From the IMG/VR virus record IMGVR_UViG_3300013131_000046, positions 1 to 61,701 of that record: a stretch of DNA of 61,701 nucleotides. One strand, written 5' to 3'. This document shows positions 10,633 to 58,743 of the stretch, one piece after another. The notes beneath the pieces were generated by a model. The model searched no databases, was not told where the DNA came from, and saw only the letters and a program-made list of their open reading frames with translations. Position 1 is the stretch's first letter. Each line of letters begins with the position of its first letter. Source of the stretch: a virus. The translations under genes were made by a program, and so were the position numbers.

Positions 10633-12756
10633 ATGACCGCACTTGCAAAAAAGTCTATCCTCGCTCGTCTTCTCGCTCGTGAGAACATCACTGTTGAACA
10701 GACTAACCATCACACCGCTTTCTTTGACGTTGAACGCCGTATCCTTGGTCTTCCTTATTGGAAAGACGTCGGGAACGACCTCTACGATCTGCTCGTCGGC
10801 CACGAAATTGGCCATGCCCTTCACACTCCGGCTGAAGGTTGGCACGAGTCGACTGCTCAAATTCCTGGTTGCCCTCGCTCGTACATCAACATCGTTGAAG
10901 ACATCCGCATCGAGAAGCTTGTGCTTCGCGAGTTTCCGGGTCTTCTCGGTTCTTTCATGCGTGGCTATCAAGATCTTCTTGATCGCGACTTCTTCGGTAT
11001 CAAAGAAGAAGACGTCAACGGTCTTTCTTTCATGAACCGTCTGAACATCTTCGCGAAAAGCCGCGGCCTTGTCAACGTCAGGTTCTCCAGCAAAGAGCAA
11101 CCCTACGTTGACCGTGCCATGGCAGTTGAAACATGGGAAGATGTTATGGCTTCCTGCAGTGAACTCTATGCGTTCATGAAAGAAGAACTCGAAGCTGCTC
11201 GCAAGGCTCAGGAAGAAGCTGAGAAAGCTGCTAAAGAAGCCGGCATCAAGATGCCTCAGCCGATCCCTGAAAAGATCATCATCACGAAAGGCAAAGGTGG
11301 TGGTGAAGCCGAGCCGATGTCGGAAGAGCTGAAAGAAGCTATTCTCAGCGGCGAAGTCGAGATTGAAGTCGACATCGACAGCTTCAACGAAGAAGACAAG
11401 TCGACTGAAGACGGTGATGCTCCCATCACCATCACGACTGAAGATAACCCTGATGTTGTCGAGACCGACTCTCTCTTCCGTTCAGCCATTGCTCGCTCGC
11501 TTGTTGACTCGATCAATGCCGGTGGGTCGACTCTCTATGCCAAAGGGCCGAGCAAAGCATTGGCTAATGCTGTCACTTCTCCCTACGAAGCTGTGAAGAA
11601 AGGTCGCTGGAAGAAAGTCGACTCGGCTGACTTCCCTACTAGAAAGTATATTCGCTTTCTTTCTGATATCAAAGACTCTGTTACCGTGATGGTAAAAGAG
11701 TTCGAGATGCGTAAGACTGCTCGTCGCTTCGCTCGGGCACGGACATCGACTAAAGGTTCGCTTGACGTCAACGTGCTTCACAAGTATAAGTTCGAAGACA
11801 ACCTCTTTAAACAAGTGACTCATCTCGACGACGACAAGTCGCACGGTATGATGATGCTGATTGATTACTCTTGCTCGATGGATACTGTCCTGCCAAAAGT
11901 GATCAAGCAGGTTCTCATCCTTGCCACCTTCTGTAAGCGTGTGAACATTCCGTTTGAAGTCTATGGCTTCACCAACCCCTACGGTGTTGGTCCGGACTTC
12001 GGTGTTCGTGTTCGTGCTGCTAAGCATCATCTGACCTCTGTCGGCATGAGCAACACTCACCTCTTCAAGCTGATCGACTCGTCAATGCCGAAGAAGGTCT
12101 ATGAAGAAGCTTTCAAAGCTCTCTTTGCTCAGACTGGTAATGGCCGTCGCCAATGGAAGGGTGCACTTGAAGAAATGGGTGGCACTCCTCTCGACACTTC
12201 GATCTTGGCCATGTTCCACCACATCGCCGACTTCAAGGCTAAACATCAGGTCCAAAAGATGAACTTCATCACGTTGACTGATGGCGCAGGCGAAGGCTTG
12301 TTTATTGAAAACGGCATCGATTTGGGTGGCAATAAGTCTGGTTACAGGAAGCGAGTGATTGAGATCCTTGGCCAGAAGATCGAAGTCAGCTATGGCTATG
12401 GCAAGACTACTCCTTGCATCCTGAATGGCCTACGTGCTATGGGTGTTCGCACTATGAACTACCACCTGATCGGCACTTCGGGGCTGAAGCGCTACCTCGG
12501 CATTGATGGCCAAGAACTAGCCGATGCTATTGCTACGGTTAACAAGAATGGTTGCATTGCGGTGGATAACCGTGATGGATATGACCGTCAGATCTTCACT
12601 GTTCTTGGTAACACTTCTTCGACTAAGGACGAAGAAGATGAAGACGAAGATCTTGATTCTGATACTCGTAACATTGCTTCGGCCTTTACTAACAAGGCTT
12701 TCAAGCGTAAGCAAGATCGAATGATCGCTGCAAATTTTGCACAAATTATCAGTTAA
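10633..12756 (+). CDS. CobT-like VWA protein with HExxH N-terminus
   Basis: 707 residues. N-terminal region has a zinc-metalloprotease-like HEIGH (residues 57-61) followed by INIVEDIRIEKL, the arrangement of CobT/VWA-type proteins. A long acidic low-complexity stretch (about 180-285) separates it from a C-terminal VWA domain with MIDAS DYSCS (about 411-415) and ITLTDGAG. In bacteria such VWA proteins pair with MoxR/CobS-type AAA ATPases to insert metals or remodel complexes. The next gene is such an ATPase. The phage substrate is unknown; cobalt chelation should not be assumed. Metal ligands for HEIGH appear complete (downstream E in NIVEDIRIE). Confidence 0.82.
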   Translation: MTALAKKSILARLLARENITVEQTNHHTAFFDVERRILGLPYWKDVGNDLYDLLVGHEIGHALHTPAEGWHESTAQIPGCPRSYINIVEDIRIEKLVLREFPGLLGSFMRGYQDLLDRDFFGIKEEDVNGLSFMNRLNIFAKSRGLVNVRFSSKEQPYVDRAMAVETWEDVMASCSELYAFMKEELEAARKAQEEAEKAAKEAGIKMPQPIPEKIIITKGKGGGEAEPMSEELKEAILSGEVEIEVDIDSFNEEDKSTEDGDAPITITTEDNPDVVETDSLFRSAIARSLVDSINAGGSTLYAKGPSKALANAVTSPYEAVKKGRWKKVDSADFPTRKYIRFLSDIKDSVTVMVKEFEMRKTARRFARARTSTKGSLDVNVLHKYKFEDNLFKQVTHLDDDKSHGMMMLIDYSCSMDTVLPKVIKQVLILATFCKRVNIPFEVYGFTNPYGVGPDFGVRVRAAKHHLTSVGMSNTHLFKLIDSSMPKKVYEEAFKALFAQTGNGRRQWKGALEEMGGTPLDTSILAMFHHIADFKAKHQVQKMNFITLTDGAGEGLFIENGIDLGGNKSGYRKRVIEILGQKIEVSYGYGKTTPCILNGLRAMGVRTMNYHLIGTSGLKRYLGIDGQELADAIATVNKNGCIAVDNRDGYDRQIFTVLGNTSSTKDEEDEDEDLDSDTRNIASAFTNKAFKRKQDRMIAANFAQIIS

Positions 12757-12779
12757 GGGGTTGACATTTCCCCTTAACT
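12751..12779 (+). promoter_or_regulatory. Perfect 10-bp inverted repeat enclosing a -35 box
   Basis: AGTTAAGGGG (12751-12760), loop TTGACATTT (12761-12769), CCCCTTAACT (12770-12779). The stop codon of the CobT-like gene is in the left arm and the -35 of the CobS-like promoter is the loop. No U tract follows, so it is not a standard terminator. Confidence 0.7.
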
Positions 12780-12789
12780 GACTTATATA
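12761..12789 (+). promoter_or_regulatory. Sigma70-like promoter for CobS-like gene
   Basis: TTGACA 12761-12766, 17 bp, TATATA 12784-12789; embedded in the inverted repeat at 12751-12779. Confidence 0.78.
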
Positions 12790-12822
12790 GAATAAGTGAA
12801 TGGCTAAATCATGGAGACTCTT

Positions 12823-13953
12823 ATGTCTGACGCCCAAACTTTCATCGACTCGATCCGCTCGGCTAAAGGCGGTAAAGAAACCTACTCTCGTAAAGAACTT
12901 CTTGACTTCGGAAAGGCAAATGGCTTTCGTCCGAAAACCGTCTGGGAAGCGATCAAGTCTGTTCCTGCTGTTAAGCGCGGAGTGGTCGACTTCTCTGCGA
13001 AAGTTATTCCGTTGAACACTACTGCCACCGCCCAGCCGACGATCGTCCTCTCGGAAGAAGGCACCTACATCCCCAAGCGCGTGAAAACCTACGTCAAGTG
13101 GGGTCACTTCAAAGACATCTCGACCATCATTGAGTCCCGCATGTTCTACCCTGTTTATCTTACCGGCTTGTCGGGTAACGGCAAGACTATGATGGTCGAA
13201 CAGGCTTGCGCTGAAGCTGGTCGCGAATACATCCGGGTTCAGATCACTCCTGAGACTGACGAAGATGACTTGATCGGTGGCTTCCGCCTTGTGAATGGTG
13301 AGACCATCTTCTCGAAAGGTCCGGTCATCAAAGCGATGGAAGCTGGCGCAATGCTGCTGGTCGACGAGATCGACCGTGGTTCGAACAAGCTGATGGCTCT
13401 TCAGGGTGTTCTCGAAGGTAAGCCTGTTCTCATCAAGAAGACTGGTGAGCTTGTGACTCCGGCTGCTGGCTTCAACATCATCGCCACCTCGAACACCAAA
13501 GGTAAAGGTTCCGAGGATGGCCGCTTCATCGCCGCTACGATCATCGACGAAGCTTTCCTTGAGCGCTTCACCATCACGATGGAGCAACCCTACCCGACGG
13601 CTCAGGTCGAGAAGAAGATCGTCGTCAAGCACATGGAGCTCTTTGGCCAAGTCGACGAAGACTTTGCTGAGAACCTGACGAAATGGTCGGCTGCCATTCG
13701 CAAGACCTTTGATGAAGGTGGCATTGACGAGATCATCTCCACTCGTCGACTGTGCCACATCGCTCAGACCTTCGCGATCTTCAAGGATCGTAAGAAGTCG
13801 ATCGACCTCTGCGTCTCTCGCTTCGATGAAGATACTCGTGCAGCCTTTGTCGACCTCTACACTAAGATCGATGCTCTTGCATCGGCTCCGAGCGGTAAGT
13901 CGCACATTACGACGAACCCCGATGACGACTACCGCAACGAATCTCCTTTCTGA
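12823..13953 (+). CDS. CobS/MoxR-like AAA+ ATPase
   Basis: 376 residues from ATG 12823, chosen because GGAG lies six bases upstream; an ATG at 12811 has no such site. Walker A GLSGNGKT near residue 116-123, Walker B AMLLVDEIDRGS near 177-188, sensor-type IIATSNTKGKG, and an arginine-finger region FLERFTI. The N-terminal 40 residues form a small helical segment. Matches the CobS-like ATPases of T4-like cyanophages and bacterial MoxR proteins. It presumably works with the VWA protein encoded just upstream, though separately promoted. Confidence 0.88.
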   Translation: MSDAQTFIDSIRSAKGGKETYSRKELLDFGKANGFRPKTVWEAIKSVPAVKRGVVDFSAKVIPLNTTATAQPTIVLSEEGTYIPKRVKTYVKWGHFKDISTIIESRMFYPVYLTGLSGNGKTMMVEQACAEAGREYIRVQITPETDEDDLIGGFRLVNGETIFSKGPVIKAMEAGAMLLVDEIDRGSNKLMALQGVLEGKPVLIKKTGELVTPAAGFNIIATSNTKGKGSEDGRFIAATIIDEAFLERFTITMEQPYPTAQVEKKIVVKHMELFGQVDEDFAENLTKWSAAIRKTFDEGGIDEIISTRRLCHIAQTFAIFKDRKKSIDLCVSRFDEDTRAAFVDLYTKIDALASAPSGKSHITTNPDDDYRNESPF

Positions 13954-15306: not shown

Positions 15307-15315
15307 ACTATTTAG

Positions 15316-15345
15316 TTGACATTCGCGAATAATATGATATAAATA
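15316..15345 (+). promoter_or_regulatory. Promoter of the permuted tmRNA gene (sigma70-like plus late octamer)
   Basis: TTGACA 15316-15321, 16 bp, TATAAA 15338-15343. The -10 region is also an exact TATAAATA (15338-15345), so the gene may be read in both early and late phases. Confidence 0.75.
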
Positions 15346-15411
15346 GACTTGTAGTGATGATGTTCACTGAACACGTTCTGGACCTGGGGGCGGTACCCAG
15401 CGGGTCCACCA

Positions 15412-15521
15412 TAGATACACTCGGTTGGGTTCCAAGTTTCACTTGGCTATACCAATAGAGGGTGCTGGCTATCCTGTAAAATCCTGCCAGCACATTAGGA
15501 TTATCCGAGTGTATCTTTGAT
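15412..15521 (+). other. Intervening segment of the permuted tmRNA precursor
   Basis: Lies between encoded CCA and GGGCTCG. It is closed by an 11-bp helix (15414-15424 with 15505-15515) and contains two hairpins, CCAAG-TTTCA-CTTGG and GTGCTGGC...GCCAGCAC. It is expected to be cut out during maturation. Confidence 0.75.
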
Positions 15522-15604
15522 GGGCTCGAAATAGGATCGACAGGCGGACTAGGCAGGATGGAGCTACCCGGCGCAAGCTCGGTTAACGCAAGAAAATTAT
15601 AACT

Positions 15605-15649
15605 GCAAACGAAAACTTTGCTCCTAAGGCTTACGCGCTAGCCGCATAA
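15605..15649 (+). other. tmRNA tag reading frame
   Basis: Fourteen codons and TAA encode ANENFAPKAYALAA. The AN start and A-L-A-A end are those of protease-directed tmRNA tags. The upstream bases CGCAAGAAAATTATAACT are A-rich as required for resume-codon choice. Confidence 0.9.
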
Positions 15650-15727
15650 TCCTGTGGGTATGGGCACCACCTAGAAACAGAACGGGCCCGCTTACACACA
15701 ACACACATTTACACATGAGGCATTTAC

Positions 15728-16576
15728 ATGGCAAATTCACGTCGCATTACTGCGCAAGAATCCGTTATCCCAACATACATCGGTGGATACGTTCAACCTA
15801 CTACTTCTGCAATTCCTAGTTCATTCGCGACTCAAGCAATCGCTCAACCTGCAAATCTTGGCCAAGCTTTCAAACCGAAGCGTGCCGGCAAGAATCCGAA
15901 TCTCTCGCACATCATCTTCGTCCTTGACGAGTCCTCTTCGATGTCGTCCTGCTGGGAACAAACCATCTCTGGCTACAACGAATATCTGAAGGCTCAGAAA
16001 GAAGACGCTGAAAAGACCGGCATCAAGACTCTTGTCTCTCTCTACAAGTTCAACGGCTACGACGTTCGGGCGATCTTTGATCGTCAAGACGTGGCTGAGG
16101 TTCAACCCCTCGACAAATCCAGCTATCGTCCAAGCGGTGACACCAACCTTCTTGACGCTATGGGTGGCGTCATGATGAAGATCAACCTTCTTCTAGCTGA
16201 CAAGAAGAAAGCTGATCGCGAGTCGGTCATTATCACTGTTCTGACCGACGGTGAAGAGAATCAGTCTCGCACCTTCCGTAACGACGACATCAAAGCAATG
16301 GTCGAAAAGTCTGAAGGCAAGAACTGGGGCTTCATGTTCCTTGGTGCAAACATCGATGCATTCCATGCCGGTGCTGCTATGGGTTTTAACCATAACAACA
16401 CAATGCAGTTCTCTACTGCTAACGCTGCTGAAACCTTCCGTTCAGCTTCTGCAATGACTTCTCGTATGAAAGGTGACTATGCTTCTGGTATGGCCACTAT
16501 GGATTCTTACACCGTATCTGCATTCAACGACGCTGAGCGTAAAGCTGCTGTGGGTGACACAGATGCAGGGAAGTAA
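15728..16576 (+). CDS. VWA-domain protein
   Basis: 282 residues. After a low-complexity N-terminus (about 1-58, rich in Thr, Gln, Pro) a von Willebrand A domain begins: IIFVLDESSSMSSC (MIDAS D-x-S-x-S near residue 68-72), SGDTNLLDAMGG (third MIDAS position), VLTDGEEN. The end is Ala/Thr-rich. A metal-dependent binding role for partner proteins is inferred; no catalytic residues. It starts 38 bases after the tmRNA gene and may share its promoter. TGAGG provides the ribosome-binding site. Confidence 0.83.
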   Translation: MANSRRITAQESVIPTYIGGYVQPTTSAIPSSFATQAIAQPANLGQAFKPKRAGKNPNLSHIIFVLDESSSMSSCWEQTISGYNEYLKAQKEDAEKTGIKTLVSLYKFNGYDVRAIFDRQDVAEVQPLDKSSYRPSGDTNLLDAMGGVMMKINLLLADKKKADRESVIITVLTDGEENQSRTFRNDDIKAMVEKSEGKNWGFMFLGANIDAFHAGAAMGFNHNNTMQFSTANAAETFRSASAMTSRMKGDYASGMATMDSYTVSAFNDAERKAAVGDTDAGK

Positions 16577-19023: not shown

Positions 19024-19230
19024 ATGCTTATTTCAACTTTTTTCAAAGAAAATGCCCATGCAGCTCGAGCCGAAGTGATGCGGAACGAAGCCGGCGCTTA
19101 TTACTATATTGATTACTATGATGCCGGTGGTAATAAATTTTACACCGAGACTTTTCCAGGAAAGTCTATTCATTACGTCGAAGACGCTGCTGAAAATTGG
19201 GCGATCAACACGAAAGTGCTACACGGATAA
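19024..19230 (+). CDS. Small conserved phage protein
   Basis: 68 residues, start MLISTFFKENAHAARAEVMRN. The motif A-Y-Y-Y-I-D-Y-Y-D-A-G-G-N and FPGKSIHYVEDAAENW recurs in T4-like cyanophages directly before gp33. Function unknown. AGGAGAACAC precedes the ATG and the stop shares bases with the gp33 start (TAATG). Confidence 0.78.
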   Translation: MLISTFFKENAHAARAEVMRNEAGAYYYIDYYDAGGNKFYTETFPGKSIHYVEDAAENWAINTKVLHG

Positions 19231-19454
19231 TGCAAATAGAACTGACAGCGGAAAGCATTCTCCGTGAAGTCAGCAAATACGTGAACGACGATGTTACATA
19301 CATCGATGCACTTGTTCATTATGCTGAAGTTCACGGAATTGAAATCGAAGTAATTGGTGACATTGTACGCCGGAGCCAGATTATCAAAGCTCGAGTACAT
19401 GAAGACGCCGAAAAACTTAATTTAGTAGAAAGAACACAGAGGTTACCGATCTAA
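19230..19454 (+). CDS. gp33: gp33-like late-transcription coactivator
   Basis: 74 residues from ATG 19230. The central YIDALVHYAEVHGIEIEVIGDIVRRS and C-terminal KLNLVERTQRLPI match the short marine T4-like form of gp33, which bridges host RNA polymerase, the gp55 sigma factor and the sliding clamp at TATAAATA promoters. It is shorter than T4 gp33 (112). TAATG overlaps on both sides link it to the genes before and after. Confidence 0.78.
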   Translation: MQIELTAESILREVSKYVNDDVTYIDALVHYAEVHGIEIEVIGDIVRRSQIIKARVHEDAEKLNLVERTQRLPI

Positions 19455-20044
19455 TGTCTGTATATTCAACGCGAGATGCTTTTGAGATTTACATGTATTA
19501 TCTCGCGCTGAAGAGGCACTTCACCACTGATTATGATTACTTTAAGTACAATGGTAAGGTGAAGGCCTCTCAACTTTCTTTCGAGAATCGTAAAGACAAA
19601 TTTCAATTTTACAAACTCTCGAAACGCAAGGATGCAAAAGAATTCATTCTTGCTAATATGATCTTTGATCCAACACTTTGGGTCGGAGACCTTCTTGATA
19701 ATGAGAAGGCAGAAGAGGTCTGCATTGAATGGGCACGTAAACAAGAAAGCTTGTCATACGTGTTCAAGAACGACCTCTCGGAGTTGAATGACGACTTCAA
19801 CTCAAACATACTTGTGAAGGATGGTCAGCATCCAAGACTTCTCCAGCTCTATAATATGCGTCGAATTAACTTGGAGACTCTTGTTATCATCGACGACCTT
19901 GTGAATAATTTTTCTTACTGGGAGAAGAAAATTGCTGATCCCATCATCTTTCCACAAATCAAACGAACGGTCGAAAAGGTTAGACCGTTCGTTTCTTACG
20001 ACAAGAAAAAGATGAAGCAGTTTCTACTAGAGAGGTTTGCGTGA
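19454..20044 (+). CDS. gp59: gp59-like helicase loader with probably exchanged C-terminus
   Basis: 196 residues. Matches to gp59 are Y-D-Y-F-K-Y-N-G (T4 YDVIKYN), RKDKFQFYKLSKR, and W-V-G-D-L-L. In T4, gp59 loads gp41 helicase onto gp32-coated forks. The end reads VEKVRPFVSYDKKKMKQF; a diverged second copy of this end is at 20942-21031 beyond a GIY-YIG gene. The 3' end overlaps that gene tail-to-tail by 18 bases. gp32 follows, as in T4-like cyanophages. Confidence 0.85.
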   Translation: MSVYSTRDAFEIYMYYLALKRHFTTDYDYFKYNGKVKASQLSFENRKDKFQFYKLSKRKDAKEFILANMIFDPTLWVGDLLDNEKAEEVCIEWARKQESLSYVFKNDLSELNDDFNSNILVKDGQHPRLLQLYNMRRINLETLVIIDDLVNNFSYWEKKIADPIIFPQIKRTVEKVRPFVSYDKKKMKQFLLERFA

Positions 20045-20692
20045 TTTGCACTTGTCGAAATGCCATCTCGCCATGATATTGTGTGCACCAGTTTTAGCGC
20101 AATGTGGACACATAACAATCTTCTGATTAGCTAATCTAGTGGCAGACATACGTTTCTTAGCTTCTTCTGAATGTGTTTTACCGACGAAAGTAGGTTCTTG
20201 GGTTTTTCTAGCTGTTTTGATCTTTTGAATCGCCTCAGGCGAATGGTTATAACCCCTACACGACTCTGAAATCTTAAGTCTGGTTGATTCGCCGTGTGAA
20301 TAGTTGTTAGACGCCCTAGTTAACATCACTTTAGCTCTGAATTCATCACTCCATTTAGTCCCATACGATGGATGGTCTTTTCCACGCAGCGGATTAAATG
20401 TGCCACCAATATTCGCGTTTAACCATCTCGTTGTATTAAGAACGTCTAAACGGCGAAGGACCCTTTCTTCCCACATCTTTGCAGCCTTTGCATTGGTAAA
20501 AACCCTTCTTACCTCAACAACATCAGGTTCGCCTAATTCATTTCGTAGTTGACATACCTTAGCCGATGAGGTAAAATAGGTTAACCACAGATCTTCTGGT
20601 TTGCATCCTTTGGCGTATCTAACACCATAGTACCAAAGATCGTGATTTTTCCAACCAATGAGATAGGTGAAAGGTGTATGATAAATAGTCAT
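20027..20692 (-). CDS. GIY-YIG homing endonuclease 2
   Basis: 221 residues, minus strand. GIY-YIG domain FTYLIGWKNHDLWYYGVRY, then catalytic region AAKMWEERVL, NUMOD-like repeats (EFRAKVMLTRAS, HSEEAKKRMSATR), and the same terminal zinc finger as endonuclease 1 (CPHCAKTG...RWHFDKC). Freestanding, with its own late promoter (20760-20767) and structured leader. Its target appears to be the 3' end of gp59. Confidence 0.9.
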   Translation of the reverse strand: MTIYHTPFTYLIGWKNHDLWYYGVRYAKGCKPEDLWLTYFTSSAKVCQLRNELGEPDVVEVRRVFTNAKAAKMWEERVLRRLDVLNTTRWLNANIGGTFNPLRGKDHPSYGTKWSDEFRAKVMLTRASNNYSHGESTRLKISESCRGYNHSPEAIQKIKTARKTQEPTFVGKTHSEEAKKRMSATRLANQKIVMCPHCAKTGAHNIMARWHFDKCKSRKPL

Positions 20693-26081: not shown

Positions 26082-26681
26082 ATGACTATTTATAGCATAG
26101 CTACAAAACCGTATTTGTATGTTTGGCTAGACACACTTACAAAAAAGCGTTATATCGGCATTCATAACGGATCACGTGGTTATTCTTACATTGGAAGTGG
26201 CACAGTATTTAGAAGAGAATATAACACTAGGCCAAATGACTTTTTACGCGTAAAAATTATACACCATAGAGATTACAACTATATTCAAAAATTAGAAAGT
26301 CGTTTTTTAAAAAGAGTGCGCGCAGATTTAGATGAGACATATTACAATATGGTCTGGAGAGCTCCACCAAATACACTTGGAAGACAAATGTCAAGTGAAG
26401 AGAAAGCACTAGTATCAAAAAGATTTAGAGGCGTTAAAAAATCTGACTACCAAAGAAAAAAGATGTCTGAAGCAAAAATTGGAAGAAAATATAGCGATAG
26501 ACACAGAGTAAATATGTCAAATGCTCATACAGGGATGATTTTTACTGAATCTCATAAAGAATCTCTTTCAAGTATCGCTAAAGCCAGGCCAACCGTTAAT
26601 TGTCCACATTGCAATAAAATTGGTAAACTTAACCAAATGAAAAGATGGCACTTCGATAACTGCAAACTATTTAATACCTAG
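26082..26681 (+). CDS. GIY-YIG homing endonuclease 3
   Basis: 199 residues. GIY-YIG domain PYLYVWLDTLTKKRYIGIHNG...YIGSGT, then RVKIIHHR, NUMOD3-like repeats (KKMSEAKIGRKYS, VNMSNAHTGMIF), and the C-terminal zinc finger CPHCNKIG...RWHFDNC shared with elements 1 and 2. The GIY domain is from a different branch than those of 1 and 2 while the ends are alike. Its 3' end overlaps gp4 tail-to-tail by 15 bases. AT-rich compared with its neighbours. Confidence 0.88.
   Translation: MTIYSIATKPYLYVWLDTLTKKRYIGIHNGSRGYSYIGSGTVFRREYNTRPNDFLRVKIIHHRDYNYIQKLESRFLKRVRADLDETYYNMVWRAPPNTLGRQMSSEEKALVSKRFRGVKKSDYQRKKMSEAKIGRKYSDRHRVNMSNAHTGMIFTESHKESLSSIAKARPTVNCPHCNKIGKLNQMKRWHFDNCKLFNT
26087..26094 (-). promoter_or_regulatory. 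Late promoter of the minus-strand tail operon, inside homing endonuclease 3 codons
   Basis: TATAAATA on the minus strand, 92 bases before ATG 25995. On the plus strand the same bases encode residues 2-5 (T-I-Y-S) of the endonuclease. Confidence 0.65.
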
Positions 26682-54129: not shown

Positions 54130-55203
54130 ATGATGATTAGTCTTGATACTTTCAATTCGACTATCGATCATCGTGAAATTACTCCAGCTCAAATGAACAA
54201 GCTGAAAGGAGTAATCAAGAAAGCAGTTGATACTGTTGATGATCCTATGCGAGTTGTAATTCGTGCTACACTCTCCGAAGAAACAAGTCGTGACATGGGT
54301 AACTTTATCGACGAGCTGTATTCTCTTGGTGTGCGCAATATGGTTGTGCATCCTCTCGTGCTTGATTCAAAACATGGGTTTATTTCTTGGAAAGAAGAAA
54401 ACTGGCAATCGATGAGATCGAAGATTTTCAATGCTCTTGAAATGTACGATGATCTATACATTAAGTTTTCTGAAGGCGTTGGCCAAAAAGAAGATTCAAA
54501 CTGTATGGTTGGTTCACACATGGTTGCTATTGATGCATCGGGTGACTTTTCAGGGTGTTACTTCTTTACAAATCAGAAATCAAACGGAGCTGACATTGCT
54601 GTACTTGGAAATGTGATTCAAGATAAAGTATATGTAGATCGTTATAAGACTTTTCAGAATGCTTATAATGAAATGTTCCAAACCGAGGAACAGTGCAGAA
54701 CTTGTGATTATCAGAATGCATGTTATCAATGCCCTGCAGGAAATCTTGATACTGGATCAAGAATATTCAGACCGGATGATATGTGCCAAAAGATTGTGAA
54801 GCTATACGTTGATTTTCAAACTGACGTAAGTAAGAAGATCTTTATGCGACATGTAAAGAAGAGAGCCAAGCGCTTAGAAGAACTTGGCCCACAAGTTATG
54901 TCAGCAGAGTTAACGTTCTTTCGAGAAGCGCTTGGCGGAAATGTAATGGGTCAAGATATGTTTGATCATTATATCTCGATCAGAAATGATCTTCAAACGC
55001 CAGAGGAAATCATGTACGAGTGGCTCGGGGCAAAAGATCTGAGAGAACTATACAACATACTAGCAAAAACGTATGGCTATCCAGAATTCACATTCCATCC
55101 TGACTCTCACATAGTGAAGTGTTATTACATACAATGCATATCGACCATCATATTCAAACAGAACTCAATCAACAAGACAAGTCTCGCGACTTTACTGGAA
55201 TAA
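54130..55203 (+). CDS. Radical SAM/SPASM protein, C-terminal part after in-frame TAA
   Basis: Same frame as 53560-54120. Starts M-M-I-S-L-D-T-F (barrel strand 4-5), includes a SPASM-type auxiliary cluster region (SNCMVGSHMVAIDASGDFSGCYFF, then C-R-T-C-D-Y-Q-N-A-C-Y-Q-C-P-A-G) and a helical tail. The ATG at 54130 has no convincing ribosome-binding site, supporting the view that this is the remainder of one gene. Its last 70 bases overlap the next radical SAM gene in another frame. Confidence 0.75.
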   Translation: MMISLDTFNSTIDHREITPAQMNKLKGVIKKAVDTVDDPMRVVIRATLSEETSRDMGNFIDELYSLGVRNMVVHPLVLDSKHGFISWKEENWQSMRSKIFNALEMYDDLYIKFSEGVGQKEDSNCMVGSHMVAIDASGDFSGCYFFTNQKSNGADIAVLGNVIQDKVYVDRYKTFQNAYNEMFQTEEQCRTCDYQNACYQCPAGNLDTGSRIFRPDDMCQKIVKLYVDFQTDVSKKIFMRHVKKRAKRLEELGPQVMSAELTFFREALGGNVMGQDMFDHYISIRNDLQTPEEIMYEWLGAKDLRELYNILAKTYGYPEFTFHPDSHIVKCYYIQCISTIIFKQNSINKTSLATLLE

Positions 55204-56231
55204 AAGCAATTACAATATACCTCGGAGACTTCTGCAACTTCGACTGTGTGTATTGTGATAGAGCCTATATTCGCGATGAGATCGGTTCTCAAAACTTGTT
55301 AAAGCGTGACTTTGACGAGATCGTTAAATTTATGACTCTCGCAAAAGAACACGCAAAAGAATTGAAAGCAATATCTTTTCATGGTGGAGAACCATTTCTC
55401 TACATTAAGAGAATTGACCAGCTCATGGAGTTGCTTCATCCACTTTTTGGTGATAGCGTTGAATATTACATCACTACAAACGGTTCGTTAATTGTAGAGA
55501 ATGAATGGTTCTTTCAAAAGTGGAACCACATACATATTACATTGAGCTATGACTTCAATTATCAAGAAATCAATCGTGAAAAGATCGATCTAAAGGGTCT
55601 AGCCGATGTCTTGTACAGAAACAATTGTTATCTCATGTTTCAATTTGTTTGCCCGCCGGATGGGTTCAACGAACACACTCTTTCAGCCGTAATAAGCGCG
55701 TGTAAAGAAAGTAGATGTGACACGGTAAATTTGATTCCTCTTCGGCATCATCGAGGAAAGCAAAAGTTTAAAGTATTGATTGACGACTTTGACATAAAGT
55801 GGTATAGTATTTACCTAATGCGATTTATTCATTCTCTCTACGTTCAAGGAATCAACCTGAATATCGATGGTAATTACGATAAGATAGATAAGCAATACTT
55901 GAACAATCATGGTAAGTTAATTCTATCACCAGACGGTTATCTATATCCGGAGTTTGATTATCTTGAGTATAAGAGAAAAGAGTTTCGAGTAGGTCGATGG
56001 AGAGGTCAACAGTATCTCGACCGCGTAAAAAGTGAAGAAGACTTTATACTGCCTGGATGCCAAACTTGTGACTTGAGAGATGCTTGCGGGTTAAAGTATT
56101 TGTATCACATGTTTGAAGAAGAACCTAGAGGCAAGTGTGTTGACTTCTACAAAACGATTAGCCTGATGGTTAGACATTTACATAAATTAAAACAGCAACC
56201 AACGTTATTGCATTGGATTGGATATGAGTAG
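55134..56231 (+). CDS. Radical SAM protein with SPASM-like C-terminus
   Basis: 365 residues from ATG 55134. 4Fe-4S motif C34-x3-C38-x2-C41 in GDFCNFDCVYCDRAY, S-F-H-G-G-E-P-F-L-Y, and T-T-N-G-S-L. A C-terminal L-P-G-C-Q-T-C-D-L-R-D-A-C-G (about 305-318) is a short auxiliary-cluster region, later C-V-D-F. Intact. Overlaps genes on both sides. Confidence 0.85.
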   Translation: MHIDHHIQTELNQQDKSRDFTGIKAITIYLGDFCNFDCVYCDRAYIRDEIGSQNLLKRDFDEIVKFMTLAKEHAKELKAISFHGGEPFLYIKRIDQLMELLHPLFGDSVEYYITTNGSLIVENEWFFQKWNHIHITLSYDFNYQEINREKIDLKGLADVLYRNNCYLMFQFVCPPDGFNEHTLSAVISACKESRCDTVNLIPLRHHRGKQKFKVLIDDFDIKWYSIYLMRFIHSLYVQGINLNIDGNYDKIDKQYLNNHGKLILSPDGYLYPEFDYLEYKRKEFRVGRWRGQQYLDRVKSEEDFILPGCQTCDLRDACGLKYLYHMFEEEPRGKCVDFYKTISLMVRHLHKLKQQPTLLHWIGYE

Positions 56232-57363
56232 TTACACCGGTGAAGAATTTAGAAAATTCAAAGATAATAGCGCATACTTCATAACTGAAGATGCATTAGC
56301 ACCTTTAGATCATGATATTACATTTAGTCCCACTAACAAATATTATTGTGGAGCAAATTGTCAGGTCTGCTATATTAAACAAAAGCTAAATCAGCACCTA
56401 CCATATTATGCAAGCGCTGTGCCAGTTAAGATAACAGCTGAAGAAGAAAAGCGTTGGTACGAGATTTTCAGTTACTTCTATGTTATCAGAGTCGTCGACG
56501 ATTTATTGTACCTCAAAGAAAACTATCCGTACGTCTATTCCTGGTATAAAGAACATGCTTCTACGTTCGAATATGGTATGACTGATAATGCTCTCATAAA
56601 GCAACATAAAACTCTCATGGAACTTAACATGAAAGGATTATCTGAAGTTGCGTTGAGTGAAGAGTTTATGAACAAAGTAAACTCAAAGAAAAACTACAAC
56701 AAGATCATTGAGATACTGCAAGATTATATTCACAAATACGATTTGCATAAAGTCAAGGTAATCAAAACCACAGAAACAGAATTACCATATCACGCAAAAG
56801 AGCTCGTTGAATGGATAAACGATAAAGGTATTGTAACGTCTCTTCATAACGATTATAGAAAGAGAAGTGTTAAAGATAACGAATTAGGCAATGCTGATCA
56901 TGATCTACAGGGTCTGTTTGATTATCAAAATAGCCACGTGTTGTGTTATAATGATAGAACATATCAGGTCTACCGTGGATCACTTCACTTATATGGTGAT
57001 CGTTTCTTCTATAGTATTGATGACGCAACAGACATAAATTGGGAACCGTTCCACACTATGGACGGCGACTTTGATCATAGAGCGTTTATGTATGATATGA
57101 TCGACGGAAAGTTTAAATTATATAGCTCTTTCTTTCAAGAGCTACAACCAGCATTAGACGCTACTGCTCAAAAATTTAGAGACTACTATATAAATACAGT
57201 AGATACATTTGTAGTGAATAGAGAATTCAACTTTATACCAAAGATGATGTTAAGCGAAAACTCGAAATACTATCACAAGCTTATAGAGCTAGGATACCGA
57301 AGAACAGAGGTTGGTTTATACTTCCCATCAGGCGATCCGGCTCCTATAATAAGTTTTAAATAA
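56224..57363 (+). CDS. Divergent radical SAM-like protein
   Basis: 379 residues from ATG 56224, overlapping the previous gene by eight bases. A CX3CX2C motif (C42, C46, C49) occurs in KYYCGANCQVCYIKQKL, but the usual G-G-E motif is not visible and the rest is unusual, so the enzyme class is less certain. Segments V-K-V-I-K-T-T-E-T-E-L-P-Y-H and D-K-G-I-V-T-S-L-H fit alternating strands of a partial TIM barrel. Contains a TATAAATA near its 3' end. Confidence 0.72.
   Translation: MSSYTGEEFRKFKDNSAYFITEDALAPLDHDITFSPTNKYYCGANCQVCYIKQKLNQHLPYYASAVPVKITAEEEKRWYEIFSYFYVIRVVDDLLYLKENYPYVYSWYKEHASTFEYGMTDNALIKQHKTLMELNMKGLSEVALSEEFMNKVNSKKNYNKIIEILQDYIHKYDLHKVKVIKTTETELPYHAKELVEWINDKGIVTSLHNDYRKRSVKDNELGNADHDLQGLFDYQNSHVLCYNDRTYQVYRGSLHLYGDRFFYSIDDATDINWEPFHTMDGDFDHRAFMYDMIDGKFKLYSSFFQELQPALDATAQKFRDYYINTVDTFVVNREFNFIPKMMLSENSKYYHKLIELGYRRTEVGLYFPSGDPAPIISFK
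57189..57196 (+). promoter_or_regulatory. Late promoter match before second HxH protein
   Basis: TATAAATA within the previous gene, 178 bases before ATG 57374. Confidence 0.4.
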
Positions 57364-57373
57364 GGATTTAAAC

Positions 57374-57754
57374 ATGCCGGCAGTAGCAGGTACAACATCG
57401 ATAAGCCCAGCTCTATCTCTTCGTACAACTTATACAACACCACTGTTAGCGCAAGTAGCTTCTGGTAATACGGTGCAAGCTGCGCATTACACCATGTTAA
57501 AAGACTTCATTAACGCAGTTGGCGCTCACACTCATACGCTTACAGATTATAGCCAGATTAAAGAATTTGGTAACTTAGCTTCGCCCGGAACTGTTTCTAC
57601 GACTGACACCGTGTCCACGGTGTCAGGTTTTACAAATGTTACTACAACGTTTTCTGCTGGCGGAACTATTACGGCAGATCACTATACTGATATGAGAAAT
57701 AAGGTTGAACTACTTCGATCACACAGTCATGCATGGGATGACCTACTCGCATAA
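57374..57754 (+). CDS. HxH-motif protein with two motif units
   Basis: 126 residues. Two units: N-T-V-Q-A-A-H-Y-T-M-L-K-D-F-I-N-A-V then H-T-H-T-L-T-D-Y (about 32-62), and T-I-T-A-D-H-Y-T-D-M-R-N-K-V-E-L-L then H-S-H-A-W-D-D-L (about 97-124). The protein at 53368 has one such unit. Thr/Ser-rich linkers look like an exposed virion protein. Each gene of this type lies directly before a radical SAM/SPASM gene (here overlapping by one base), which suggests substrate-enzyme pairs. Confidence 0.75.
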   Translation: MPAVAGTTSISPALSLRTTYTTPLLAQVASGNTVQAAHYTMLKDFINAVGAHTHTLTDYSQIKEFGNLASPGTVSTTDTVSTVSGFTNVTTTFSAGGTITADHYTDMRNKVELLRSHSHAWDDLLA

Positions 57755-58743
57755 TGGATTATCAATACTATGAACTGAAAGATGGCACATCTTTCTATTA
57801 TGACTCACATAACAATAAGTTATTTAACACTCTAGGTGATCAACTAAACCTGCCTCCAGAGCGGAATCTTTCGTATTATGAAGCAGAAGAAAAGAATCAT
57901 GGTGTTACAAGTAAAGTAAACAATCCAATTGCTATTCGAATTCTGCTGGGTCATGCATGTAACTATAACTGCACATATTGCATGCAAAAGGATATTGGAA
58001 ATCCGCTCGAAAGACCACAGTCTATTTACACAGAGACGTTTATAACAAACGTCCAGCGTAGTCTCAATCTTGAAAGACTTCATCGAGTAGAACTTTGGGG
58101 AGGTGAACCATTTCTTTATTGGAAAGATATGGTTGCCATTATGTCTTTCTTCGATTCGCCTGATCGTGAATTCTTTATTTCAACAAATGGGTCAGCATTT
58201 GTACAAAAGCACGTTGACTTCTTTCGATCGTTAAAAGCAAGAGTACTCATTAGTCTTTCACACGATGCAGTTGGACAAGAGAAACTGCGTGGAGAAGACA
58301 TACTGAAGAATTCAAAGAAAGTCGACGTTGTCAAGCAGCTAATAGGTCTCCCAAACGTAGGGTTAGGATTCTCGACAGTTGTAAGTAACGAGAATCATGA
58401 CCTCTATGCAATCAATGATTACTTCATGGACTTTTGTAAATCGAATGATGTTGACCAGAAATACATGAAGATCACGTTTATTCCTGCAAAGAATTACGAT
58501 GTACACGATACAGGTGAAGCTTCGTCAAATTATATTCTTCGTGGAGAGAAACTAAAAGATTTTGCTTCACATCTTTTTCAGTTCACTCAAGAGTCTTTGC
58601 TTGACATCGAGCGAAAAAGATTCTTAAAGAATAACGTAGTGTATTCAGAAGAAGGCATTATTGAATACGCAAAGTTTCTGAAAAGAGCCACACCTATCAC
58701 TACAAAGTCTGGATGTGGCGCAGACTCAAACGACATTTTATAA
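57754..58743 (+). CDS. Radical SAM/SPASM protein, part before in-frame TAA
   Basis: 329 codons. 4Fe-4S motif C69-x3-C73-x2-C76 in HACNYNCTYCMQK, L-W-G-G-E-P-F-L-Y-W, and T-N-G-S. TAA at codon 330 (58741-58743) follows SGCGADSNDIL, the start of the SPASM domain. The frame goes on with V-D-I-Q-G-N-V-R-L-C-P-H-T, exactly the expected strand, so this is a second radical SAM gene with a single in-frame stop. Confidence 0.82.
   Translation: MDYQYYELKDGTSFYYDSHNNKLFNTLGDQLNLPPERNLSYYEAEEKNHGVTSKVNNPIAIRILLGHACNYNCTYCMQKDIGNPLERPQSIYTETFITNVQRSLNLERLHRVELWGGEPFLYWKDMVAIMSFFDSPDREFFISTNGSAFVQKHVDFFRSLKARVLISLSHDAVGQEKLRGEDILKNSKKVDVVKQLIGLPNVGLGFSTVVSNENHDLYAINDYFMDFCKSNDVDQKYMKITFIPAKNYDVHDTGEASSNYILRGEKLKDFASHLFQFTQESLLDIERKRFLKNNVVYSEEGIIEYAKFLKRATPITTKSGCGADSNDIL

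Follow-up and report, generated by a model that had tools for sequence, protein, structure and literature searches.

A circularly permuted alpha-type tmRNA gene on a T4-like phage fragment: conservation, promoter and intervening segment

Genes for tmRNA are common in large phages, and we found no test of their use to the phage in the literature. Circularly permuted forms have already been published, namely that of Melnitz in 2022 together with 53 two-piece phage tmRNAs (PMC9004378), and the gene described here adds to these known examples and is not the first of its type. The original prediction for this DNA, which named unpermuted tmRNA genes alone as known in phages, was outdated in this respect.

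The ssrA of Methylophilales phage Melnitz (PMC9004378, MZ577097) is an alpha-type permuted tmRNA gene from a T4-like marine phage, and it resembles the present gene in its TTGACA-N17-TATAAATA promoter, in the closing stem of its intervening segment (IVS) and in a tag that ends in ALAA. It differs in the glutamine riboswitch that follows the tmRNA, in a small ORF that opens in the IVS, in the acceptor stem GGGGGCG and in the tag ANDNYVPVDYALAA. Roseophages DSS3_MAL1, in which the tmRNA is annotated, and MD18 also carry permuted alpha-type tmRNAs with a closing IVS stem, but they lack TATAAATA, their tmRNA is preceded by a GOLLD RNA, and the tag frame ends in ANTNAAPMEMAIAA. In both roseophages the GOLLD RNA lies directly upstream of the tmRNA and contains a tRNA (901-1364 in L002, from DSS3_MAL1; 744-1211 in L003, from MD18).

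Alphaproteobacterial ssrA (Rfam RF01849) shares the permutation, the tRNA-like fold and the 3' pseudoknot, while the acceptor stem of the phage gene is GGGCTCG/CGGGTCC. The Paracoccus megaplasmid copies differ further, with a 22-nt IVS, TATATT in place of TATAAATA and the tag ANDNRAPVALAA. Permuted ssrA lies on two Paracoccus versutus megaplasmid records of 1.7-2.2 Mb (L234 and L235), in stretches without annotated genes. Mycobacteriophage tmRNAs other than that of DS6A, such as that of Bxz1, are one-piece and not known to be permuted. They are likewise phage-encoded, whereas the DS6A molecule consists of the tRNA-like domain only (PMC4131195).

The tmRNA gene and its surroundings

The window, which is the whole stretch of 61,701 nucleotides that was analysed, is a virus record with a T4-like gene set that includes a gp32-like single-strand binding protein, a helicase loader, a DNA end protector and head closure, tail tube, tail tube cap and baseplate wedge proteins. 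On this T4-like myophage fragment, a complete circularly permuted alpha-type tmRNA gene occupies positions 15312-15692 of the plus strand. The features of the locus are as follows.

15316-15321, plus strand: TTGACA, a perfect sigma70-type -35 hexamer, 16 nt before TATAAATA
15338-15345, plus strand: TATAAATA, by motif match a T4-type late promoter doubling as the -10 box (TATAAA)
15350-15411, plus strand: acceptor (3') piece, first in the gene and ending in the encoded CCA; the tmRNA_permuted match starts at 15350
15384-15400, plus strand: T arm, 5-bp stem and 7-nt loop; 100% of alignment cells paired, two-sided changes in 3 of 5 pairs
15401-15411, plus strand: acceptor 3' strand CGGGTCC (15401-15407), A73 (15408) and CCA (15409-15411); covariation, and G3.U70 in 15 of 15 family members
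15412-15521, plus strand: IVS of 110 nt, not in the mature RNA and non-coding here; closing stem 15413-15424 with 15505-15516
15522-15692, plus strand: 5' (coding) piece with the acceptor 5' strand (15522-15528), tag frame and 3' pseudoknot; the alpha_tmRNA match ends at 15692
15605-15649, plus strand: tag frame ANENFAPKAYALAA, 14 codons (15605-15646) and stop TAA (15647-15649); pN/pS 0.28 over 14 family members
15656-15689, plus strand: 3' pseudoknot, 15656-15659 with 15669-15672 and 15662-15668 with 15683-15689
15728-16576, plus strand: VWA-domain protein gene, the conserved downstream neighbour (PF00092, E 1e-4, just below the curated cut-off)
19197-19454, plus strand: gene for a gp33-like late-promoter transcriptional regulator (phrog_25387, E 2.7e-13; phrog_254, E 3e-8)

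Membership of the permuted alpha-type class was assessed with Rfam RF01849 and RF04321. Both models matched over their full length, alpha_tmRNA at 101 bits (E 2e-26, gathering score 50) and tmRNA_permuted at 104 bits (E 2.8e-19, gathering score 47). The original prediction had named a covariance-model search as its check, and this significant result, together with the T4-like gene set, bears out its claim of a permuted alpha-type tmRNA on a phage. The gene runs from the acceptor piece through the encoded CCA and the IVS to the 5' piece, which starts from G1 at 15522. All seven acceptor pairs form between GGGCTCG and CGGGTCC, the alanine identity pair G3.U70 included, A73 is present, and the tag frame has a stop and a degradation-type C terminus. 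The prediction was thus correct in placing CCA first, in the full pairing of the acceptor strands and in the 14-codon tag, and its 110-base intervening segment is exact. ARAGORN returned 0 genes on the window and missed the tmRNA, so routine annotation could overlook such a gene.

Nine phage records, either related or tmRNA-bearing, yielded no SmpB gene, so host SmpB would be used, and a working tmRNA that borrows it is the most likely reading of the sequence. The genes that flank the tmRNA encode a peptidase-like protein of 707 aa, a CobS/CbbQ-like AAA ATPase (both within 10633-13953) and the VWA protein, a set that we take to resemble the MoxR-VWA chaperone set. Elsewhere in the window, three radical SAM domain proteins are clustered downstream of the tail genes (54130-58743), and two homing endonuclease genes of one family (phrog_314; 20027-20692 on the minus strand, with a NUMOD3 motif, and 26082-26681 on the plus strand) adjoin replication and structural genes.

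Conservation, tag and origin

Relatives were found through the downstream VWA-domain protein, which gave 29 viral loci, and a permuted tmRNA lies at the same spot in nearly all of those with the VWA gene and enough upstream flank. We aligned the window with 12 relatives (13 sequences in all, with only the ends of the IVS kept). Standard pairs make up 95.4% of cells, and two-sided changes occur in 22 of the 32 tested pairs as compared with 10.1 in shuffles; none of 500 shuffles reached 22. When the partner is slid by one base, such changes fall to 3 or 4 pairs. The three outermost acceptor pairs, G3.U70 among them, are invariant, while the other four covary, and all 15 family members have G3.U70 and 7/7 acceptor pairs. 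More broadly, among the viral permuted tmRNAs listed, G3.U70 and A73 are present in 118 of 118, G3 being part of the scan pattern for most of them, and 117 of 118 have the full 7/7 acceptor pairs. The pseudoknot helices show two-sided changes in 2 of 4 pairs (the 15656-15659 helix) and 5 of 7 pairs (the 15662-15668 helix); across the alignment, 79% of the cells of the latter are paired, and in the window it is imperfect. The tag is under constraint, as its pN/pS of 0.28 indicates, and has the AN...LAA form of most sampled viral tags, although frames that end in AA are preferred by the tag finder. The RNA encoded in the window is real, complete and under selection. Unusually long tag frames, of 24 to 29 residues, were seen in L396, L108, L087 and L102 (e.g., ANDNFAPEAFTSLDMSMDRELIAA).

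These data bear on whether the gene could be a recently captured host fragment or a decaying, functionless remnant. The RNA is of alphaproteobacterial type and ssrA is a common integration site (PMC9004378), yet we regard this explanation as extremely improbable given the conserved position, covariation and constrained tag next to a neighbour protein that is 57-92% identical across these relatives. The gene content is that of a virulent T4-like phage, and no integrase was found among the window proteins scanned. The proposal that the phage took its ssrA from its present host also lacks support, with the tmRNA at the same spot in so many relatives. Scans of 84,980 cellular genomes gave zero matches to the exact T-arm/acceptor form and zero to the tag form, although such exact patterns miss near variants. 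An ancient alphaproteobacterial origin is possible. Pure co-descent with the neighbouring gene is not proved, since the correlation between VWA-protein and tmRNA distances is weak (r 0.32, p 0.016, n 14), and recombination is likely. One locus, L149, counts against our preferred explanation, as its VWA protein is 56% identical and yet its tmRNA is very different, with a very short IVS.

Two further explanations grant the RNA an activity other than ordinary tagging. The phage could alter the tag to redirect or protect tagged proteins, as the original prediction had partly suggested, and the form ANxNFAPxA[YF]ALAA was indeed not found in the cellular genomes scanned. However, the AN start and LAA end are kept, the middle residues of tags vary widely anyway, and the tag is of the usual -ALAA degradation type and subject to purifying selection, which gives redirected tagging no support; we consider it improbable. 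A decoy that titrates SmpB and so inhibits host trans-translation has been suggested for mycobacteriophage DS6A, which has little beyond the tRNA-like domain; inhibition of tmRNA is known for a similar molecule (PMC4131195). This is likewise improbable in the window, since a decoy would need neither the tag frame and its stop nor the 3' pseudoknot, all of which are intact and under selection here. Both alternatives become less likely because the tag and pseudoknot are intact and constrained.

The promoter and the timing of expression

Upstream of the gene, a host-type TTGACA-N16-TATAAA promoter overlaps the T4 late element TATAAATA. The T4-type late promoter is quoted as TATAAAT (PMC9004378). 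The model places the RNA start 12 nt after the first base of TATAAATA, and the phage encodes a gp33-like late-transcription protein, as do all 7 records searched (the window and six relatives). The window holds 15 copies of TATAAATA where 3.4 are expected, and only the copy at the tmRNA has a perfect TTGACA -35. Other copies immediately precede the genes for the DNA end protector, head closure and tail tube cap. In the listed set, an exact TATAAATA is found 65-82 nt before CCA in 80 of 118 viral permuted tmRNAs, and a -35 matching at least 5 of 6 positions accompanies 60 of these 80 sites; TATAAATA sites elsewhere in the same loci have one in only 4 of 154 cases (Fisher p 3e-33). Against the composite reading, 20 of the 80 tmRNA-linked sites have no good -35, and against a late promoter, 33 of the 118 have no NATAAATA at the promoter place. 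We infer a composite host/late promoter from this arrangement, and the TATAAATA motif and its gp33-like partner gene are the reasons why the tmRNA gene is apparently also read late in infection.

It is conceivable, though rather unlikely, that the tmRNA is expressed early only, from a sigma70-type promoter as proposed for Melnitz, with TATAAATA a mere -10 variant. The perfect and correctly spaced TTGACA of the window and most relatives would fit such a promoter, and that of Melnitz was called early by its authors (PMC9004378). However, the -10 box in those 80 tmRNAs is TATAAATA and not TATAAT, the element occurs in the window at four times the expected number with several copies before late structural genes, and some relatives (L139, L142) retain NATAAATA without a -35. 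Melnitz itself has TATAAATA 17 nt after its TTGACA. A composite promoter with a gp33-like gene yields a direct prediction of timing, one that departs from early-only expression, the sole published proposal.

The gene in the window is probably a functional, phage-owned two-piece tmRNA, expressed from a composite promoter and serving late ribosome rescue and degradation tagging with host SmpB. Host RNA polymerase would read it from the sigma70-type -35/-10, and phage-modified polymerase would read it again, late, from TATAAATA. In the precursor, the IVS stem would extend the acceptor helix; tRNA-processing enzymes would then take out the IVS and leave two pieces that remain paired. Once charged with alanine via G3.U70, the two-piece tmRNA would bind host SmpB and free ribosomes stalled on broken mRNAs, adding a ClpXP-type -ALAA tag to the unfinished proteins, and late protein synthesis could be sustained as host transcription fails. 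By analogy with the known alpha-type RNA, we infer charging, cleavage into two pieces and activity. Ribosome rescue with degradation tagging in late infection is the most economical reading of the sequence; the rescue role given in the original prediction fits every feature, and its late use fits the TATAAATA element and the gp33-like gene.

The intervening segment and nested small genes

The closing stem of the window IVS has 12 bp, beginning one nt after CCA and ending five before G1. Stems of at least 8 pairs close 83 of the 89 listed viral IVSs of at least 50 nt, as compared with 2% of shuffled ones, and among the relatives of the window 8 of 9 closing pairs show two-sided changes. Inside this stem, most of these phages have IVSs of their own sequence and length (65 to 149 nt). 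The window IVS has a fold z-score of -5.0 and no ORF with a Shine-Dalgarno sequence. A coding reading of it was rejected, the only frame being one of 31 codons that starts with TTG, without a Shine-Dalgarno; this TTG is TTA in the close relative L124.

In other viral tmRNAs, long IVSs often carry a Shine-Dalgarno right behind CCA and then a small ORF, which in most cases stops at the UAG of GAAAUAGG or one base short of G1. Among the matches listed from metagenomic contigs sampled by a tmRNA anchor pattern, a Shine-Dalgarno and an ORF filling the IVS occur in 21 of 42 IVSs of at least 100 nt, as compared with 0.32 in shuffles (maximum 2); a second scan, which selected on the Shine-Dalgarno, was left out of this frequency. 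Loci with nested genes include L346, L396, L400, L081, L104, L020, L046, L105, L061 and L028, and Rfam confirmed the tmRNA around the nested genes in 12 of 12 loci checked. Five peptide groups have two or more members, and the three that were tested have pN/pS of 0.25, 0.21 and 0.30 when read in the predicted frame, with distinctly larger values for the other frames. At least 25 loci have a nested gene for a 62-aa protein (MEIIWHILLTVC...), and the same junction is also seen in the flank of a further locus, L403. Elsewhere this gene is free-standing, often with its end immediately ahead of the tmRNA promoter, which is also the arrangement in Melnitz. Neither the 62-aa nor the 44-aa peptide has a family in PHROGs, and some others had only weak, insignificant PHROGs matches. 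For annotators, the missed window gene in ARAGORN and the absence of the best-sampled nested peptides from PHROGs serve as a warning.

One strand of the closing stem contains the Shine-Dalgarno and the other the final codons, so that at nested IVSs translation might interfere with RNA processing and vice versa. On balance we favour the broader view that the permuted tmRNA of T4-like phages is a dual transcription unit, in which a composite host/late promoter would serve an RNA whose IVS is a cargo slot. In many relatives this slot would hold a small protein gene under purifying selection, with its Shine-Dalgarno in the closing stem by CCA and its stop at G1, and the segment set free by tRNA processing would be a minimal mRNA; the window would be of the same kind, with a structured non-coding segment. 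If true, this would be an unusual arrangement, in which the discarded spacer of a structured RNA gene houses a protein gene and RNA processing is tied to the life of an mRNA. Our literature search, which covered papers outside subscription, found no ORF in the IVS of a permuted tmRNA, and a tmRNA database paper of 2025 mentions nothing there beyond a tRNA gene and a repeat. In the Melnitz IVS (L426, 1786-1927), a frame reading MFKWLSK...IPKYLSG opens after GGAG and runs on into the 5' piece, and it resembles the nested peptides of L059 and L386.
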